A stretch of DNA of 64,000 nt from Prostheceraeus crozeri (lineage: Eukaryota; Platyhelminthes; Polycladida; Euryleptidae), in contig CAJQUW010015614.1 of the NCBI GenBank assembly GCA_907163375.1, positions 186,001 to 250,000 on the forward strand, given 5' to 3'. The position numbers and the translations under genes were made by a program. The notes below the pieces were generated by a model that did not search any database, was not told the origin of the DNA, and was given only the letters and a program-made list of their open reading frames with translations. This document shows positions 8,805 through 43,941 of the stretch, piece after piece; within the stretch, counting starts at the first letter, position 1; every line of letters begins with the position of its first letter.

Positions 8805-9772
8805 TCGGCCGTGAAAAGCCAAAACAACGTATTTTAAAATACGTTGTTTTGCCTTAACATGGTCATATTGGTTTCAGCATGTGTATTTTCGTCTGAGATT
8901 TGTCAGCTATTTTAAACAAGTAAAAATAATGCATTTTCAGGATAAAACAATTTAGAATTATAAGCTACACGTCAATAGAACTAACTACCGGTATCTAACT
9001 ATCGAGATGCGATGAAATATATTTTCTAATGAAACTATAAAGCAACGTATTTCAAAATACGCTTAATCTAATTGGCATTTTGTTAAACTATTAATAGGCA
9101 AAACAACGTATTACAAAATACGTTGCAATGAAGCTTTTCATACTTCTGAGTCTGAAAAACGCATTTTAGAAGGCGTTGTTTTAGCTCTTCATACTTTTGA
9201 GTCTGAAAAACGCATTTTAGAAGGCGTTGTTTTAGCTCTTCATACTTCTGAGACTGAAAATCGCATTTTAAAATGCGTTGTTTTAGCTTTTCATGCTTAT
9301 GAGACTGAAAAACGTGAAATACGTTGTTTTGGCGCTTCATAACGCTGAAACTGAATAACACATTTTAAAATACGTTGATTTAGCTTCATAACGCTGAAAC
9401 TGAATAACACATTCTAAAATACGTTGTTTTGGCGCTTCATAACGCTGAAACTGAATAACACATTCTAAAATGCGTTGTTTTAGCTTCATAACACTGAAAC
9501 TGAATAACGCATTTTAAAATCCGTTGTTTTAGCTTTTCATACTTCTGAGACTGAAAATCGCATTTTAAAATACGCAGTTTTAGCTTTTCATACTTATGAG
9601 ACTGAATAACGCATTGTGAAATACGTTGTTTTGGCGTTTCATGCCTCTGAAAATAAATATCGTGTTTTGAAATACGTTGTTTTTTTTAGTTTGAAAGTGC
9701 CTGTTTGATTTTACCATGGATTTCTCAAAACAGCTATTTTCAAACTACGCTGTTTTGCCTTTTCACGGCCGA
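8805..9772. mobile_element. TIR-bounded minisatellite element (AAAACAACGTATTTT repeats)
   Basis: The outer ends are inverted repeats of about 33 bp: TCGGCCGTGAAAAGCCAAAA at 8805 and its near-complement ending CTTTTCACGGCCGA at 9772. From about 9040 to 9700 there is a degenerate tandem array of about 12 units of 48-58 bp, each with an ACGTTGTTTTAGCTTTTCAT-like segment and GACTGAAAAACGCATTTTA. The unit is related to the TIR itself, as seen in the perfect palindrome at 8820-8850. A minus-strand open frame over part of the array (9361-9083) repeats LKQRLLKCVFQTQKYEE because three units are 57 bp; I regard it as a by-product. Confidence 0.75.
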
Positions 9773-12989: not shown

Positions 12990-13700
12990 TATGTTCTCTA
13001 TCAAGTGTTGGAGAATAATGGTTATCCTCGCTGGTTTATAGAGAAGCACTCGGCACCACCACCACCTAGCCAAGCTGGAGTCCCGAAGAAACCATTCTAC
13101 TTTGAGCTCCAATATTATGGCAAAGTAAGCGAATTGATAGCGAAGAAAGTGCGCAATGATATTGAAAGTGGATTCTACCATTTGAAGGCAATCCCTGTAT
13201 TTAGAACAAAAATGCTATCTCCTGGCATTGTGAAAGACATTGTACCGTCGTACCACAAACCTCTTATAAAACGATATTTTTCTTGTCCTTGCGGAGCATG
13301 GTACTGTGGGAAAAGCGAGCGATGTCTCTCAGTCAGAAGAAAGGAACACATTACCAACTGGTTGCCTACCTCAAATTCGCGGCCCAAATCAAGAAAGCCG
13401 ATACAATCAGACATAACTCGCCATTTAACTGACTGTCAACGCAAACCGAATGTCCTGAACTCGAATGACAAAGGCTTTCAAGTCCACAAGCAGGCTTAAG
13501 ATCCCCTCCTTCTTTCCATCAATGAAAGTGTGACAATACGTCAGATGAAACCTGATCTTTGCTGCCAAAAGGACCGTTTATTCCTTCTCCGACTTAGTTG
13601 AGTTTCTAGGATTATTGTCTGATATTTATTCTCTTACTGTCAATTTCAAGTTATTCAGTATTACTATTTACTTTCATTGATAAGTAACTTGATTGTACAT
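12990..13700 (+). mobile_element. Penelope-like element, 5'-truncated
   Basis: This is the 3' part of a Penelope-like retroelement carrying the GIY-YIG end of its single ORF (next entry) and a short AT-rich trailer. The left junction with MITE sequence lies near 12990. The right end is uncertain between 13600 and 13930. No hammerhead motif was seen in this copy. Confidence 0.75.
13005..13600 (+). pseudogene. Penelope-like ORF C-terminus with GIY-YIG endonuclease
   Basis: In intact relatives the ORF joins a telomerase-like RT to a GIY-YIG nuclease. Here only the end survives. ENNGYPRWFI marks the RT C-terminal connector, VFRTKM and IVPSYHKPL lead in, and YFSCPCGAWYCGKSERCLSV..KEHI is the GIY-YIG core (here WYC / CGK), followed by ITRHLTDC. 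An in-frame TAA interrupts after VHKQA, but the frame continues with LLLSINESVTIRQMKPDLCC to 13600, matching the usual Penelope C-terminus. So it is truncated at the front and carries one nonsense change. Confidence 0.85.
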
Positions 13701-14140: not shown

Positions 14141-15714
14141 CAGGTTTTTGCGTTTAATAGAGGCAGTTGTGCATTACAGAGTGGCATAATGCGCAATATT
14201 AACGGCTTTAATCACAAATTAATGAAATCGGTTCATTTGTTAACGACGAATACTGTTAAACACTCCGTCAATTTCAAATTTAACGACTTATTAACTAAAC
14301 AGCAGCATTTGTCAGTTATAACGGCGGTTCATCTAAATACTACGTCATTTTGCAAAACTCAATATATCCAAGACAGTTTTTATTCAAATTATGCATGTCA
14401 TTATGTCACATCATTATGCATGGTCATCACTTATGTCCTGCATCTGAATGCATGCGGTGAAGATGCGTCTTGTTCGCCGATGGGCAGCACTACAAGCAGC
14501 TGGAGTGATTTCCACCAAATTTTGCTCAGCAAGCTGAGTAAGAGTTGCCAGTTGCCCTTGATATGGCTGGCGAAGTAACTGTTCCCTCACCTCTTCCAAT
14601 TGGCGTCGTAGACCCGCCTTCCAAATGCTGAAACAATTTTCTGCTGCGTTTAGGAAAGGTGAATAGGGTGGTAGATAATGTAAATCAGCGTTGGCATGTT
14701 GATCGCTGACGTCCGTGGCACGGCGATGACAAGGTGCATTGTCAAGGAGAAGGACAGCCTCTTCATTGGGAAGGAAGTGGCCGTTGATAAGGTCCGCCAA
14801 AAAGTCGTTCTCCGTCACGGATAGTGTGATGTACTAAGCCTCGTTGGCTGGACACTCCCAGAATGAGGGTAAAATTTGGGCATTGTCTAGCTCCGACGAT
14901 GCGCTGTGCACGATGTCCTCTTGCAGACCGTCCTCGAGATCGACTCGTCCATAAGTTAAAACCTGATTCATCAATGTAGATAATGTGAGGATCCGCTGGT
15001 GTGAGCCATTCCGCGTGGGCTCGGCGAGCAAATTTGACATCCATTCTGTTACGATCTGCAGGTGGTGACTCCAGCTTCATTGTGATGAGGCTACCTCTTA
15101 ACACGCGATGGACTGTGGACTCACTGAGACGAGGACTGTCTGGTAATTGGAGTCGAAACTCTTCGCTGAGTTGTCGCAACGTGTAATTAGGGTGTTGTTC
15201 GACAGTTCGAACAAGGCAATCAATCATCTCTTGAGTTGCAAGCTGTCGTCGTCCACCCCCTCTTTTCCGTACCATTACCTCACCATCTTCCAGATAGCGA
15301 CGTATGATTGACCAGGCTGTCCCTCGCGGAATGTTAAGCGCCGCAGCTACCTCTACATAGTCAGAGTTTGGATTCTCATAGGCATCCACAATTCTCTTTT
15401 TATCCAGCAACGGTATCATTCTTCTTCGTCTCATTTTTCCAACTGTGCGCGCTCACAGTGCCGGCTGTCCTTAAATACTGCATCATGTCGTAACGTTCTG
15501 ACATTTACCGATCAACACTCACCTTATTGCCATTCAGTTTTGCAAGCGCCAGTAAAGCAATGGGCCTACGTCGTAATAAAGTACAAAAGGACGGAATGTT
15601 TTGTTTGTGCCGTTAGTCTCTATTGTTATGCCGTTAATCATTGCATATTGACGATATTCTATGCAAAATGACGTAATCAATTGAGGAAACGCCGTTATTT
15701 CCTGCAAAAACCTG
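14141..15714 (-). mobile_element. IS630/Tc1-mariner superfamily transposon
   Basis: A 1574-bp element with ends CAGGTTTTTGCG on the left and TGCAAAAACCTG on the right, and a TA dinucleotide duplicated on both sides (14139-14140 and 15715-15716). The sub-terminal regions carry repeated AACGGC / TAACGAC words, probable transposase binding sites. It sits exactly at a TA inside a CATAGAG MITE, and the MITE can be read across the junction. It encodes one transposase, now frameshifted. Confidence 0.9.
14414..15434 (-). pseudogene. IS630-type DDE transposase (frameshifted)
   Basis: It starts at 15434 with MRRRRMIPLLDKKRIVDAY. Residues about 25-50 form a first helix-turn-helix, GGGRRQ is the hinge, and LRQLSEEF plus LSESTVHRVLRG form the second. 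The catalytic core has IYIDESGFNLW (first D, about residue 155), LLLDNAPCHR (second D), and PPYSPFLNAAEN with E as the third acidic residue. I count 33 residues between the second D and the E, one fewer than Tc1 (DD34E). A single frameshift near 14815 separates the N-terminal frame (15434-14763) from the C-terminal one (ending 14414). All three catalytic residues survive, so inactivation looks recent. Length otherwise fits the family (about 340 residues). Confidence 0.9.
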
Positions 15715-25990: not shown

Positions 25991-27205
25991 CAGGAATCTG
26001 GAGCGGGCATGGAAGTGAAGCGGAGTGGTCGATAGTTTATTTGATGAAAGATGGAATACGTTGGAAATCATAAAACAAATTACTACTATTTTTTGCATGT
26101 TGACGTGTGTTTGTTTGATGAAATCCCGAATAATAGCTTGAATGCTATCCAACGCTCTTCGTGAAAGTCTCCTAAAGAGAACATCTCATTATTGGGAAGA
26201 CCCAGAGTTAGTCATGGCTTCGTTGTTAGACCCTCGATTCAAGGACGGATTCGTGACAGACGTGGAAATGCGACGAAAACTGAAAGACAAGGTACTTTCG
26301 GAATTAAATGCGAGAAAGTTAAAGACATCTACGAAAGTGAGCTGTCCAACGTTCAGCGACAAGTCATCTACGTCTTCTTCATCCTTGTTGGATGATCTCC
26401 CTTGTGATTTTGTTCCCAATCCAGTAACATCGGCAAAGGAGGAGCTTGAAATTTACCTGGCGGAAAGAACTATTCCACATACTGACTGCCCAATGAAGTA
26501 TTGGAGGGAAATTTCAAATAATCGGTTAACCCTTCGCAAAGCTGCGGAAGAAGTGATAGGCGTTCCAGCGACTTCAGGTAGCTCTGAAAGAATGTTCTCA
26601 ACCGCAGGATATCTAAGCACATCGCTTAGAAATCGAATTTCGCTTCATCTTCTTGATATGAAGGCTTTTATAAAGCGCAATAATGATATCAGAAACCAAA
26701 TACTGATGAACTGTATGTACTGCTGTAGTTTGTAATTGGTGGCGCTGTTAGTAAAGAATAAAAGTTTGTTATAAATAATTTGTATCTATGTCTATTTTTA
26801 GTGACATAATAACATAAAAGAACTTTGTTTCCTATTCCTAATACTTTTTACTTCTCTTACATTGTCTAGAAGCTAAGTTAAGTAATTACATCATATTATT
26901 TTTTCAAAATTACAAACTTTGGTAATTGCATGGGTATAGGCCTACCAATATGATACGTAGAACGGCTAGCCTCACATAAAACTCAGACCATCGCAATTCG
27001 TAAGCTCACCCATACAATCAATTTATGTTTTAATTAGGTAGTAGGAGAGGGGCCTACAGTATTGAGATGGAGCGGAGCGGAGTGGAGCGGGAAAGGGCCT
27101 TGGAGCGGAGCGAAGTGAGATATGGGGTTTGACGGAGCGGAGAGGAGCGGTTAAAGAGGTGGCATGGAGCGGAGTGGTTAAAAATCGACCGCTTCAGATC
27201 CCTGG
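25991..27205 (+). mobile_element. hAT transposon, internally deleted
   Basis: A 1215-bp element with 16-bp TIRs CAGGAATCTGGAGCGG and CCGCTTCAGATCCCTG (14 of 16 complementary) and an 8-bp target duplication GTGTATAC / GTGTATAT (25983-25990 and 27206-27213). The right sub-terminal region (27068-27176) is packed with GGAGCGGA words and the left with GAAGCGGAGTGG, as expected for hAT transposase binding clusters. It carries the last part of a transposase gene. Confidence 0.93.
26142..26735 (+). pseudogene. hAT transposase C-terminal part with dimerisation domain
   Basis: A 197-codon frame covers the end of a hAT transposase. LVMASLLDPRFKD is the classical block before the C-terminal domain. After a serine-rich linker come ELEIYLAERTIP, CPMKYWREI and VPATSGSSERMFSTAG, the hATC dimerisation motif. 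The BED finger and the RNase-H-like catalytic core are absent, so it cannot be an active transposase. It is open to its stop, so the deletion rather than point decay disabled it. The first Met may simply be internal. Confidence 0.9.
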
Positions 27206-28639: not shown

Positions 28640-29830
28640 TGCACTGAATTTGTGTTTTCATTTTTTGTGTACAGTGGCCTTGAAGCAATATGTCATAATG
28701 CTATTTTCAAATAAAATCGGAAGCAAATTAAATCAACACTGTAAACTGTGCGATACCAAAGCTACTTACGAAACCGAGGTACAAAACGAGAATACCGAAA
28801 TGTACGAAGCCTCTATTGTTCGTGCTCATACACTACGAAAGCGATTTGTAATTTGCGTGATAAAAGTCCAAGACCGCTGTTCTAGTCCGAACAATAAAAG
28901 TACAGCTGTGCAGATACCGACTAACAGATTGGTCAGTAACGGATTCGAACCGAACACTTTAAAACGCAAAGAGCCTAAAAAATTAAAGATAAATAAAAAA
29001 AAGTCAATTTAACGCTTGACTTTATCAACGACAGTTTCACTCGCAAAATAAACGATATTCAAACTAGATACGACATCCCCGCTAGAATTACCTGTCGACC
29101 AGGAAAGAAGATAAGTACTACAGCGAAAAATAAAATAGAGCATAAAAATAAATGTTCCTGTGAGATCTGTAAATCTATTGGCCCTAAATATAGTTGCAAT
29201 GACAAATACATACTCTATGAATTTAGTTGCAACTTCTGTAATATGAAATACATCGGAGAAAGTTGTCGCCCTTTCAGGCTTAGATATCGCGAGCACGTTA
29301 ATAGTATGAAGAACAAGAGCAGTACAAGTGCACTTAGTGAGCACCACTTAACACAACAAGCCGATAAAGTGATAAAAATTAACGACTTTAGTTGCAAAAA
29401 TCCTGTCTAAATATTGTAAATCAGCGATATCTACTAGAATTACATCAATATTTTTGCAAAATTCTTTCTTCATCTCCCTGAATTATATAATAAGTCCAAA
29501 CATTCGTGAATGATAAAATGTAGGTCCGATATCTCCCCGACATTGCATTGAAGTTCTCTGTTGACATAAAAGTTTCAATAGTCGCTACTTGTAAAACTAA
29601 AAGTAGTAGCATAAATAGAAATTACCTGAATTATGAAAAAATATCTTGGAAAGTCGGCAAAATTCATTGATTACATTCATTCGACACAAAAACGACTTAA
29701 TTTTTCCCACAGGGTAGTCTTATTTAAACGTAGTGACTGACCTGTGCCATTCGCTCTTGAAACTGTCCTGAGAGATGAAACGCGTCGGGTAACGCTATTT
29801 TACTAAGAATAAAGAATCGTCATAAAAAAG
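28640..29830 (+). mobile_element. Penelope-like element, second lineage
   Basis: The region contains the GIY-YIG end of a Penelope-like ORF (next entry) and a trailer to about 29830. In the trailer, at about 29770-29795, CCTGAGAGATGAAACGCGTC resembles a damaged hammerhead core; GAAACGCGTC has the palindromic short stem III and the cleavage triplet. Upstream open sequence (28635-29012) has a CxxC pair (HCKLCDT) but no certain assignment. Confidence 0.6.
29012..29409 (+). pseudogene. Penelope-like GIY-YIG endonuclease domain
   Basis: The frame follows LDFINDSFTRKINDIQTRYD, then CSCEICKSIGPKYSCNDKYI with several cysteines (a zinc-knuckle-like block seen before GIY-YIG in some Penelope lineages), then YEFSCNFCNMKYIGES, RPFRLRYREHVNSM and SALSEHH. 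KYIGES is the YIG half of the motif. It ends at a TAA at 29409. The RT domain is missing or unrecognisable upstream. It is clearly a different lineage from the one at 13.0 kb. Confidence 0.82.
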
Positions 29831-31587: not shown

Positions 31588-32200
31588 GATGCCTTCTCGA
31601 TTAAGACGTCACACGGCTGTCGCAGTGGCTCAACAACTGCTAGCAAAATTGAATAGGATGAAGAACGCCATCGATGCCTTTCCGATCCTGAATCTGTCGT
31701 CTTGAAATTGAATGAGCCTTGAACCAAAAGTAGTATCTCAGTCACAGTTGATAACTATTTTACTTCCATCTCTTTAGCTAAAAGTCTTCTTCAAAGGAAG
31801 ATTACTTTGTTGGGAACAATTCGCCTGAATAGACGAGAAATCCCCACAGAAGTTGAGCAATATCTTGTTCAAAGGAAAATTACTCTATTGGGAACTATCC
31901 GCCTGAATAGAAGAGAAAAGAATGCCGTCAATACCTCGGACAAGATACTCATATCATACTCCACCAAGTGCGCGTCAGGGAGATGGCCACTTGCTGTCTT
32001 TCACAATTTCTTGGATATACTCGGATCTATTGTGCCTGAATTCCGGGATCCTTGCATGAACATGCAAAGTGCAAAACACAAAATTTTCTGCTGCACATGG
32101 GAAAATTGTTTTACTTCAAATCATATCGATCCGCACGCGGATACCTCATTTCAATCTTCCCACGTTACGCTGACAAGCCCTGTAAAGCGGATCACATGAT
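31588..32200 (+). pseudogene. piggyBac transposase, heavily decayed
   Basis: MPSRLRRHTAVAVAQQLLA at 31588 looks like the PGBD N-terminus, and a frameshift leads to the acidic DEERHRCLSDPES. Further on, LLQRKITLLGTIRLNRREIP is the well-known VGTLRxNRKxIP block. It is followed by a tandem partial duplication of the same block, then LISYSTK and GRWPLAVFHNFLDI, which matches the RRWPxxVFxNxLDL block of the C-terminal half. The central catalytic region is deleted. Confidence 0.8.
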
Positions 32201-39985: not shown

Positions 39986-40416
39986 TATCTATGATGGGCA
40001 ATGATATCATTTTATTTTTTATGATGAAAATATACAATTTTTTAGTGAAATATCCGTAGACCTACATCATAAATAGATCTACACTGTAGTTATCCGAGTA
40101 ATTCAATTTACACTGCTACCATGTTACTTTTGCTGCTCTTAGCAATGAAATTGAAATTAGATTGCATGCAGCATCGATATATTCCAAATAATGGAAGACC
40201 AAAGACATCAGTTTAATCATACAAAGCTTCTTGTATATCAAAAGTTAGGTAGTTCCTATGGCTTATACATTAAACATCGCAGGTTATGATTTAAGCTTTA
40301 TACACTCGAATTGCAAATAAGCCTACAATGTGCAGCTGGTCAGGCCAACAGTATGTAAAGTTTAGACAAGTAACCTGGCAATTGATAAATTTATCAAATC
40401 TCAACAGATGTAACCA

Positions 40417-40459
40417 CCACGAGACATGTTTCGGCCTGTTGGGCCTCATCAGTCGTGGG
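40417..40459 (-). ncRNA. Type I hammerhead ribozyme (minus-strand copy)
   Basis: Read on the minus strand from 40459: stem I CCCACGA, core CTGATGA, stem II GGCC with loop CAACA and GGCC, core GAAA, stem III C-AT-G-T, C17, then TCGTGG closing stem I. Predicted cleavage is between + strand positions 40423 and 40422. Stem III has only two base pairs with a two-base loop (ACATGT), which favours a dimeric fold by pairing of the palindrome. All conserved core residues are present. Confidence 0.88.
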
Positions 40460-40647
40460 TAGGTTTGAACCAGCGACGTTGGAGCTAGAGGACGTGCAAT
40501 CATACCCTCTGACAACAAGGCCTTGTTCTCTGCAAGGCTGATCTCGGATGCGGTATTAAGTGATTGCAGAATGCAGTCCGCCCTCCACGTGCCTGCGTTA
40601 AAGCAGTGCCTTCCTGGCTAATTCACGCTCTCAACAGATGGTCCGGT

Positions 40648-40708
40648 GGCCTTGTTGTCAGAGGGTATGATTGCACGTCCTCTAGCTCCAACGTCGCTGG
40701 TTCAAACC
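40648..40708 (+). other. tRNA-like head with pol III B box
   Basis: GTTGTCAGAGGGTATGATTG resembles the D-arm/A-box region of tRNA-Pro or tRNA-Asp, and GGTTCAAACC (40699-40708) is a good B box at the spacing seen in tRNA genes. The acceptor stem is missing and the anticodon arm is poor, so it is not a functional tRNA. The B box lies two bases before stem I of the ribozyme. The mirror copy occupies 40522-40462 on the minus strand. Confidence 0.65.
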
Positions 40709-40710
40709 TA

Positions 40711-40753
40711 CCCACGACTGATGAGGCCCAAAAGGCCGAAACATGTCTCGTGG
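40711..40753 (+). ncRNA. Type I hammerhead ribozyme (plus-strand copy)
   Basis: Stem I CCCACGA (40711-40717) pairs six bases with TCGTGG (40748-40753). CTGATGA is at 40718-40724, stem II GGCC-CAAAA-GGCC at 40725-40737, and GAAAC from 40738. Stem III is A-C/G-T with loop AT, then C17 at 40747. Cleavage is predicted between 40747 and 40748. Every invariant residue of the family is in place. It differs from the minus copy only in the stem II loop. Confidence 0.9.
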
Positions 40754-41067
40754 TGGTTACATCTGTTGAGATTTGATAAGTATGTAAAGTATTACTATTA
40801 GTATAGTATATACTAAGCATATATTTAGATTACAGTCAAGACTTGAAAAACATCAAGACAATGTTATTAATGAGTCGCTTGACAATTTGTGTGATAGACA
40901 GACTGTCAGACAATAGCATGTTGCTTTCCGCTACATGAATCAACCAGTGGGGAAGGACAATGGTAGAACAAGCGAAAGAGACTAAATTTGCTTCAATACA
41001 AAATGCAAGGAATCTATGATTAGAAAATATAATGGAACAAAATTTTTTGATGATATCATTCTATATC

Positions 41068-42603: not shown

Positions 42604-42813
42604 GAGTTCTCCTCAAGTCGGTCAGAGAATCTCACCGCTCGCCATGTCCCCAAACTCTCTCCTCAAGTCGGTCAGAGAATCTCACCGCTCGCCATGTCCC
42701 CAAACTCTCTCCTCAAGTCGGTCAGAGAGTCTCACCGCTCGCCATGTCCCCAAACTCTCTCCTCAAGTCGGTCAGAGAATCTCACCGCTCGCCATGTCCC
42801 CAAACTCTCTACT
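42604..42813. repeat. 50-bp minisatellite, four near-identical units
   Basis: CCTCAAGTCGGTCAGAGAAT begins units at 42611, 42661, 42711 and 42761, exactly 50 bp apart, with at most one or two substitutions between them. There are no spacers, so it is not CRISPR-like. It is more GC-rich than the neighbourhood and lies about 240 bp upstream of the RING exon start, so it may sit in that gene's promoter or 5' UTR. Confidence 0.9.
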
Positions 42814-43048
42814 CTTGTCAGATCCGCTCATGTGCACTCCCCTGGCTATCTCTGACGTCAACGAGGGACACATGGCGCGCGTACACCTTCCATCTGACTA
42901 TCTGATCGCTCCTTCAAAACAGCCGTTCACTCGCTGACTTTCCCCAAAACGCCTACCATCCGCTCGTTCATGTAGTCAGCTTCCTCCCATCCTTCGTATC
43001 CGCGTTATGTTCGCATCTCCACTTCGTCTGTAGTCTCAAAACTTCGTA

Positions 43049-43363
43049 ATGGGCGATGTTCGTAGACTTTCAAGGTCAAGCCCTCTGTCTGGAGAACGAG
43101 GGAAACTTTGTAAAGAGATTCAGGATGAATTTCTTGTCTGCAAGATCTGCATGGACACATTGAAGGCGCCCAAGTGTTTGAGTTGTCTTCATACTTTCTG
43201 TGAAGCATGTGTGGAGAAGCATGTACTCGCTGAGTATGCTTCGAAGAAATACGGTGATTACAGGGAATTCAACTGTCCTTTGTGCCGAAAGAGAACGACG
43301 TTGCCGATTGGAGGAGTGAAAAGACTTCCAGACAACTTTCTTGTGTCCAATTTGTCCGATATG
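43049..43363 (+). CDS. First coding exon of a TRIM2/3-like RING E3 ubiquitin ligase
   Basis: The ATG at 43049 has a good context (G at -3, G at +4). The exon encodes 105 residues. A C3HC4 RING finger is complete: C31-x2-C34, C46-x-H48, C51-x2-C54, C76-x2-C79 (CKIC, CLHTFCEAC, CPLC). This would bind an E2 enzyme and transfer ubiquitin. LPIGGVKRLPDNFLVSNLSD after the RING is characteristic of TRIM2/TRIM3/TRIM56-type proteins, just before the B-box. GATATG|GTAAGT at 43361-43369 is a strong phase-0 splice donor, so the reading-through to a stop at 43486 is intronic. No B-box, coiled coil or NHL exon is found downstream in the window; the gene continues beyond a long intron or is broken. Confidence 0.82.
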
Positions 43364-43369
43364 GTAAGT
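43364..43369 (+). promoter_or_regulatory. Splice donor of the RING exon
   Basis: GTAAGT following ATG, a consensus donor. It falls exactly where the TRIM homology ends. Confidence 0.75.
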
Positions 43370-43467
43370 CTGAAACGTCAAACTAGGAAGCAAGAGGAAA
43401 AATATCGAAAAATTAGATATCAGTTATTTACGCAAGTAGTGCAAAGTAACCATCTTTATTGTGTGAG

Positions 43468-43941
43468 GTCAAATACTGAGTGTTAGAGTGCTGGTGTTGA
43501 GCTTCAAGTGTTAACACCAGCGCTGAGCGCCAAGCTGAGTGTTGATTAGCAGCGCTGGGCTGAACACTGGCGCTCAGCTCTGAACTTCAATGTTAAACGC
43601 CTATATTCATCGAGTGTTGACGCTCAGCACAGGTGCCGTGCTGTCATATTCAGTGTTGTGTAACCGTGAAATCAACTGTCAACGCTCAATGCAGGTGATT
43701 GAACACTGGCGCTAAGCGCTGGCCAGTCAATCTTGCTGTCAAGACTGTTGAAAGCGAATCTCAACACTGGAAACCCACCATAGAAACCATAGAAACCTGG
43801 AACCATAGAAATCCACAGTTTCGACACTCGCCCTGAGTGTCAACACCAATGTTCAGATATCAACACCAGCGTTAAGACAAGTGTTGGGTGTCAACGCCGG
43901 TGTTCAACTCAACACCAGCACTCTAACACTCGGTATTTGAC
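43468..43941. mobile_element. Palindromic MITE in the RING-gene intron
   Basis: GTCAAATACTGAGTGTTAGA on the left faces TCTAACACTCGGTATTTGAC on the right; pairing extends at least 34 bases with one or two mismatches. The interior is built of variants of AACACTGGCGCTCAGC and its complement, giving an irregular, strongly structured 474-bp element. It starts about 105 bp after the splice donor, so it is probably transcribed as intron. Confidence 0.78.

Follow-up and report, generated by a model that had tools for sequence, protein, structure and literature searches.

Head-to-head hammerhead retrozymes with one short and one long end in the flatworm Prostheceraeus crozeri: probable products of Penelope-type insertion

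Introduction

The metazoan non-LTR retrozymes described by Cervera and de la Pena (2020, PMC7229834) are non-coding repeats of a few hundred bp that carry a type I hammerhead ribozyme and are found as tandem copies, in high copy number and with target duplications of more than 4 bp. Plant LTR retrozymes, also non-autonomous hammerhead retroelements, are described with direct LTRs of about 350 bp, a tRNA-Met primer site and 4-bp duplications (PMC7761336), while the schistosome SMalpha, as quoted in PMC8490949, is a short SINE-like element with a type I hammerhead. LINEs or Penelope-like elements were proposed to carry the animal retrozymes, in accounts that offer no insertion signature (PMC7229834, PMC7761336, PMC11722881), and PMC7229834 considers the Penelope-like elements a strong candidate. 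A word search of the main text of that article finds no occurrence of "inverted", "head-to-head" or "tail".

Penelope-like elements encode a protein combining a reverse transcriptase (RT) with a GIY-YIG endonuclease. Inverted pLTRs with a 31-bp tail on one of them were reported in Adineta vaga, the head-to-head arrangement being the most frequent; inversion is not universal in this species, as Pen1 is mostly direct (PMC3846280). PMC11167929, which calls the tail signature unique to Penelope-like elements, shows that the protein of the Anolis element PAc cuts and extends both strands of AT-rich targets and initiates at two neighbouring positions inside the RNA, corresponding to the tail. According to the same article, the RT start sites were alike on both strands and hammerhead mutants still inserted; insertion in vitro therefore needs neither a separate site for each strand nor processing by the ribozyme, which argues against a strict assignment of one site to each strand in that system. 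Described copies have 8-10 bp duplications, and PAc also carries a hammerhead (PMC3846280, PMC11167929).

Here we describe a retrozyme of Prostheceraeus crozeri that resembles the metazoan retrozymes in its unit and the Penelope-like elements in the way its copies are arranged. Inverted head-to-head copies and a tail of about 30 nt at one of the two ends are found in both, and the retrozyme unit of 303 bp is non-coding, in contrast to the Penelope-like elements. Where PMC7229834 gives no insertion signature for its retrozymes, the present family shows head-to-head units with a short (S) and a long (L) end. We found no description of inverted retrozymes with a one-sided tail in the literature searched, the coverage of which was partial and does not prove absence. 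The first-pass annotation of this DNA had considered the inverted unit to be without precedent; although it named the Penelope pLTRs, it overlooked the inverted Penelope-like copies already published (PMC3846280).

The insertion in the window

The window is the whole stretch of 64,000 nucleotides that was analysed (C12951:186001-250000), taken from an assembly of 2.05 Gb in 14,165 contigs. The insertion that it contains is confirmed, as one member of a family with many copies (Table 1). Two inverted arms had been proposed from the sequence and are indeed present, being identical at 131 of 132 positions. The 132-bp inverted repeat is thus genuine, and it is the part common to a minus arm of 161 nt and a plus arm of 239 nt, the true monomer measuring 303 bp. 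The apparent 125-bp spacer between the arms consists of a further 107 bp of right arm plus the 18-nt filler. On the left side, the BLAST alignment extends to monomer position 163, into a GT common to the arm and the duplication. The 11-bp target duplication is confirmed, and amounts to a 12-bp direct repeat once the A shared with the right end is counted. No further substantial copy of the arm lies elsewhere in the window.

Table 1. Features of the retrozyme insertion, in window positions
Feature	Position	Strand	Basis
Left target-site duplication AGTATGTAAAGT	40350..40361		
Left arm, monomer ~161 to 1, outer end type L (long tail)	40362..40522	-	BLAST
Type I hammerhead, left arm	40403..40468	-	RF02275 33.5 bits, below gathering score
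Predicted cleavage, left-arm hammerhead	between 40423 and 40422	-	by eye from conserved GUC
Filler, 18 nt, at head-to-head junction	40523..40540		
Right arm, outer end type S (short)	40541..40779	+	
Right arm, monomer 197-303	40541..40647	+	
Right arm, monomer 1-132	40648..40779	+	
Type I hammerhead, right arm	40702..40767	+	RF02275 36.0 bits, below gathering score
Predicted cleavage, right-arm hammerhead	between 40747 and 40748	+	by eye
Right target-site duplication AGTATGTAAAGT, first A shared with S end	40779..40790		

The window copy alone, with its 141-nt inverted arms and 12-bp duplication, looks like a DNA transposon or MITE with terminal inverted repeats of about 140 bp. Given the multi-unit arrays, the junctions that shift along the monomer and the one-armed copies of the same family, we regard this explanation as extremely improbable.

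Remains of DNA transposons were observed in the window: a hAT dimerisation domain (26142-26735, +), a DDE_3/HTH transposase split over two frames (14414-15452, -) and a DDE_Tnp_1_7 transposase (31723-32199, +). The window also contains a RING-finger exon, TRIM-like by eye (43034-43486, +), and two tandem repeats, one of 50 bp in 4.1 copies that are 98% alike (42608-42814) and one of 51 bp in 11 copies (9132-9683).

Monomer and family

Searching the genome with the arm gave at least 42 listed matches, the best 40 of 235 first-look candidates having been scored. At a locus on C8534, head-to-tail copies of exactly 303 bp flank the inversion on both sides. With at most 3 mismatches allowed, the ribozyme core pattern occurs 3,899 times in the genome, and its reversed control never. 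No coding frame of at least 120 aa (stop to stop) overlaps 40350-40790.

The unit is therefore short and tandemly repeated, its 303 bp lying within the 150-450 bp of retrozymes; it is present in many copies, with target duplications longer than 4 bp (9-14 bp at seven two-armed loci outside TA repeats), and it carries a type I hammerhead, though RF02275 scores below the gathering threshold. Judged by its sequence, this non-coding monomer fits the definition of a metazoan retrozyme. Encoding neither an RT nor a GIY-YIG endonuclease, it is not itself a Penelope-like element. As far as its mapped structure goes, it differs from the plant retrozymes in having no LTRs, no tRNA-Met primer site and no 4-bp duplications. 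The viral collection searched gave no exact match to the ribozyme pattern. TTTT is absent from the monomer, but this is unremarkable (763 of 2000 shuffles).

The hammerhead and the supposed tRNA-like head

A complete hammerhead had been claimed for each arm. The core CUGAUGA...GAAA...GUC is complete by eye in both, and the covariance model RF02275 recognises the two (E 4.4e-07 for the right arm and 2.7e-06 for the left, for a 1,301-base stretch), yet below its gathering score of 52, a point against our reading; a scan of the whole window at gathering level returned no match. As the earlier reading had supposed, a sense ribozyme would be present in RNA transcribed from either strand. By eye, stem III is a tiny palindrome, A[CAUG]U, similar to the axolotl hammerhead Amex1, which performs better as a dimer (PMC7229834), so that neighbouring units may aid cleavage. 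The predicted fold of the ribozyme stretch is no more stable than that of shuffles (z -0.88).

The tRNA-like head, which had also been proposed for each arm, finds no support. ARAGORN detects no tRNA in the window, cmscan at E<=10 gives no tRNA match on either the window copy or the 303-bp array, and in the monomer no B box is preceded, at a distance of 31-65 bases, by an A box with one mismatch or fewer. A B-box-like string, GGTTCAAACC, stands alone at 40699-40708 and overlaps the ribozyme. With no tRNA match and no A box within one mismatch, a tRNA-derived SINE was rejected. The likeness to SMalpha is one of description (PMC8490949), and a pol III-type head is unconfirmed in the present unit.

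Head-to-head arrays with one short and one long end

The first-pass annotation had treated the window copy as a special inverted dimer, which would be a one-off rearrangement if the inversion occurred only here. A genome search finds inverted copies at many loci, and the window copy is one among many head-to-head arrays of a 303-bp retrozyme. In the two-armed copies the arms are head-to-head with their tails outward, and the junction differs from locus to locus. Among 100 listed exact places of the core, neighbours within 1 kb are -/+ in 13 cases, +/- in 2 and on the same strand in 35. A list-based sample of 27 distinct elements, which leaves out some 20 listed loci on C351-C607 and most of a first batch picked by likeness to the query, comprises 17 two-armed head-to-head elements and 10 one-armed ones. 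Arms range from 37 to 3,064 nt, up to about ten units. The two arms of an element show no correlation in length (rho 0.21, p 0.26, 31 elements), and although the S arm is the longer one in 20 of 31, the excess is not clear (p 0.15). Among 33 rows of head junctions, 14 overlap by 1-9 nt, 2 are flush and 17 have a filler of 1-43 nt; the short overlaps may be due to chance, because they rely on BLAST end points and duplicates were kept.

Two loci deserve separate mention. On C46 (L030/L031) the same inverted retrozyme is found three times with a 5,833-bp period, its hammerhead places being 47576, 53409 and 59242, which reflects either a segmental tandem duplication or an assembly effect. On C274 (L040, 13500-23400) two retrozyme insertions lie about 90 bp apart, one of them comprising 7 full units on the minus strand and 9 on the plus strand. 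Before counting, L031, L044 and the further L030 copies were removed as duplicates, as well as L028 for the permutation of arms described below; the junction and flank tables retain duplicates, and the flank table treats the two neighbouring L040 elements as one row.

The outer ends follow a rule. The S end lies at monomer position ~131-133 (...GAGATTTGATAA) and the L end at ~161-163 (...GGTTACTTGTCTAA), and 31 of 35 fetched two-armed elements, duplicates removed, combine one S with one L end; the left end is L in 17 of them and S in 14. None of the 35 is L/L. In two of the exceptions, the second element of L021 and L035, one end is cut elsewhere, and in L036 the far S end is 1.8 kb away. The last, L028, has outer ends at S and ~142 and an internal L end; it was scored as S/S and probably consists of two abutting elements. 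A placement of S and L in the loops of two small hairpins was discarded (fold z -0.43, 61 of 200 shuffles at least as stable).

An independent list of exact ends agrees. The S end fused to TA has 261 genome matches and the L end fused to TA 216, with none for the reversed controls. The comparison used the places listed up to contig C5328, 100 for S and 77 (of 100) for L, and among these all 32 divergent neighbour pairs within 7 kb are S/L; four of these loci (on C99, C186, C274 and C346) are also among the fetched elements. Most listed S and L ends have no exact partner, and the count therefore speaks for pairs only. Two close pairs are convergent, L/L on C274 and S/S on C2654, and look like two neighbouring elements each. 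With a distance limit of 20 kb, two more divergent pairs appear, one S/L and one S/S; the S/S pair lies on C3752 with ends 14.6 kb apart and is taken as two elements.

These observations bear on two explanations that place the inversion after insertion or outside the organism altogether. Single-orientation insertions could have been inverted later by DNA events such as fold-back replication, inverted duplication or a second nearby insertion. The one-armed copies (10 of 27) agree with this and count against priming from both strands; likewise, some inverted loci are themselves duplicated (three times at 5,833 bp on C46, twice on C309), so that DNA-level duplication does occur here. We still consider such events unlikely as the general cause, as they predict neither the one S and one L end, nor the duplications that bracket the whole inverted unit, nor the 13 to 2 excess of -/+ over +/- neighbours. 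Assembly artefacts, by which repeats would be folded or duplicated into false palindromes, could be suspected from the three C46 copies and from the near-identical flanks of L043 and L044 on C309, although segmental duplication would account for these as well. The pattern recurs, however, on dozens of contigs with differing junctions, flanks and duplications, and artefactual palindromes would not bear different ends on their two sides, which renders this explanation very improbable.

Identity of arms and units

Units within an array are nearly identical. All 6 full units of L014, from both arms, show no difference and the 12 units of L037 differ by 0-1; in L040 there is none within the 9 plus units and up to 5 within the 7 minus units. 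Between loci, with one unit taken from each of 9, there are 1-15 differences out of 303. Over 27 elements, the arms of one element are closer than permuted arms (0.0152 vs 0.0274, 0 of 5000 permutations), and both arms would therefore often stem from one RNA species. Against this, 19 of 30 rows include some arm from a different locus that is strictly closer than the partner, and for L044 all 73 are. We infer that a circle most simply explains arms of several units without seams; the arrays may also stem from tandem RNA or from later homogenisation.

Target sites

The targets are rich in AT, as for Penelope-type insertion: in 20 of 33 rows, one or both of the 30-nt flanks consist of (TA)n over half of their length or more, vs none of 2,133 30-mers of the window. 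At two-armed loci outside TA repeats, duplications measure 12-14 bp (window copy, L009, L011, L033, L039 and L047) or 9 bp (L043/L044), and the one-armed L019 has a 12-bp duplication. The earlier view of a hammerhead retroelement that entered as a single inverted unit and duplicated its target was right. L015, L024 and L041 share no flank string longer than 6 bp, which counts against our model; where the target is (TA)n, the duplications are hidden in the repeat.

Another source of such insertions would be target-primed reverse transcription by a LINE (non-LTR element), the inversions arising by twin priming. LINEs, too, commonly leave target duplications of 9-14 bp, and to that extent the duplications favour this possibility. 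In classical twin priming, the inverted part is a different RNA segment and its outer end is variable; here both arms repeat the same sequence, and the outer ends are fixed 30 nt apart. Reviews leave a LINE carrier possible (PMC11722881; Discussion of PMC7229834), and the tail signature is unique to Penelope-like elements according to PMC11167929. We find a LINE carrier unlikely.

Penelope-type elements of the same genome

A fragment at window positions 28997-29410 (+) resembles a Penelope-type endonuclease by eye, unconfirmed by Pfam, and was used as a genome query. It yielded 28,688 first-look candidates, of which the best 150 were scored; among these, neighbour pairs within 6 kb are divergent in 19 of 19 cases, and at 8 kb 20 are divergent, one is -/- and one +/+. 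Further remains at 12990-13499 (+) look by eye like a Penelope-type GIY-YIG endonuclease, which Pfam does not confirm.

One locus, L058 on C4990, has a frame of 774 aa in which an RT domain is recognised (RVT_1, E 5.6e-10), together with a weak GIY-YIG match (E 0.077, below the cut-off). Five of its 79 listed homologues are labelled GIY-YIG in Pfam, four of them together with RVT_1. From the order of RT and endonuclease and from familiar motifs, we take L058 to be Penelope-like. A search of PDB sequences with its protein gave no match. In two inverted members of its family, L055 and L056, the ends differ by 31 and 35 nt, only one side carrying the longer end, and the duplications measure 13 and 12 bp; a pair of a related family on C4681 (L051/L054) likewise ends, by similarity, shorter on one side and longer on the other. 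Penelope-type copies of this genome thus also show the published signature of inverted copies with a one-sided tail. Around another inverted Penelope-type pair (L057, C6856:50800-56600) we observed a palindrome of about 5.8 kb with halves 99.4% identical; it reaches the edge of the fetched stretch and provides no usable ends.

Ten Penelope-type loci gave no significant match, so that among them no family bearing the tail of the retrozyme itself came to light, which counts against our model. The L058 family finds no support as the partner of the retrozyme, with no exact ends fused to TA and no shared sequence, and no hammerhead was listed at the end of this family.

A model for insertion

We consider it probable that Penelope-type machinery acts in trans on this non-coding retrozyme, both strands of the target serving as primers for its reverse transcription. 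The twin priming guessed at in the first-pass annotation agrees with the observed structure inasmuch as both strands would be primed. The retrozyme RNA would be cut by its own hammerhead and probably circularised. To judge from the target sites and the 9-14-bp duplications, a Penelope-type endonuclease/RT would then cleave the two strands at a target rich in AT, often (TA)n. The two 3' ends of the target would prime inside the RNA, one at S (~132) and the other at L (~162), the positions being suggested by the one S and one L end found per insertion. Both cDNAs would run toward the 5' side of the RNA, sometimes for several rounds of the unit; the 303-bp period and the near-identical units are observed, and a circular template would account for them. 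The cDNA ends would finally be joined via short homology or filler, a presumed step leading to the head-to-head arrays with outward tails that are found in the genome.

More tentatively, a single two-headed complex may act on one RNA circle, the cut strands being placed on two dedicated start sites 30 nt apart, one for each strand, the two RTs circling the RNA, in some cases for many rounds, and their cDNAs then being joined. Such double-primed rolling-circle reverse transcription would explain both the one S and one L end of each complete insertion and the presence of the same units in the two arms of young arrays; it is a possibility to which we give less than even credence.

Conclusions

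Carriers have been proposed for animal retrozymes without an insertion signature. The rule of one S and one L end provides DNA evidence for Penelope-type insertion, and can be counted in any genome. The retrozymes of P. crozeri also offer a large set of natural products in which the use of both target strands by a Penelope-type enzyme, and perhaps of circular templates, can be studied.
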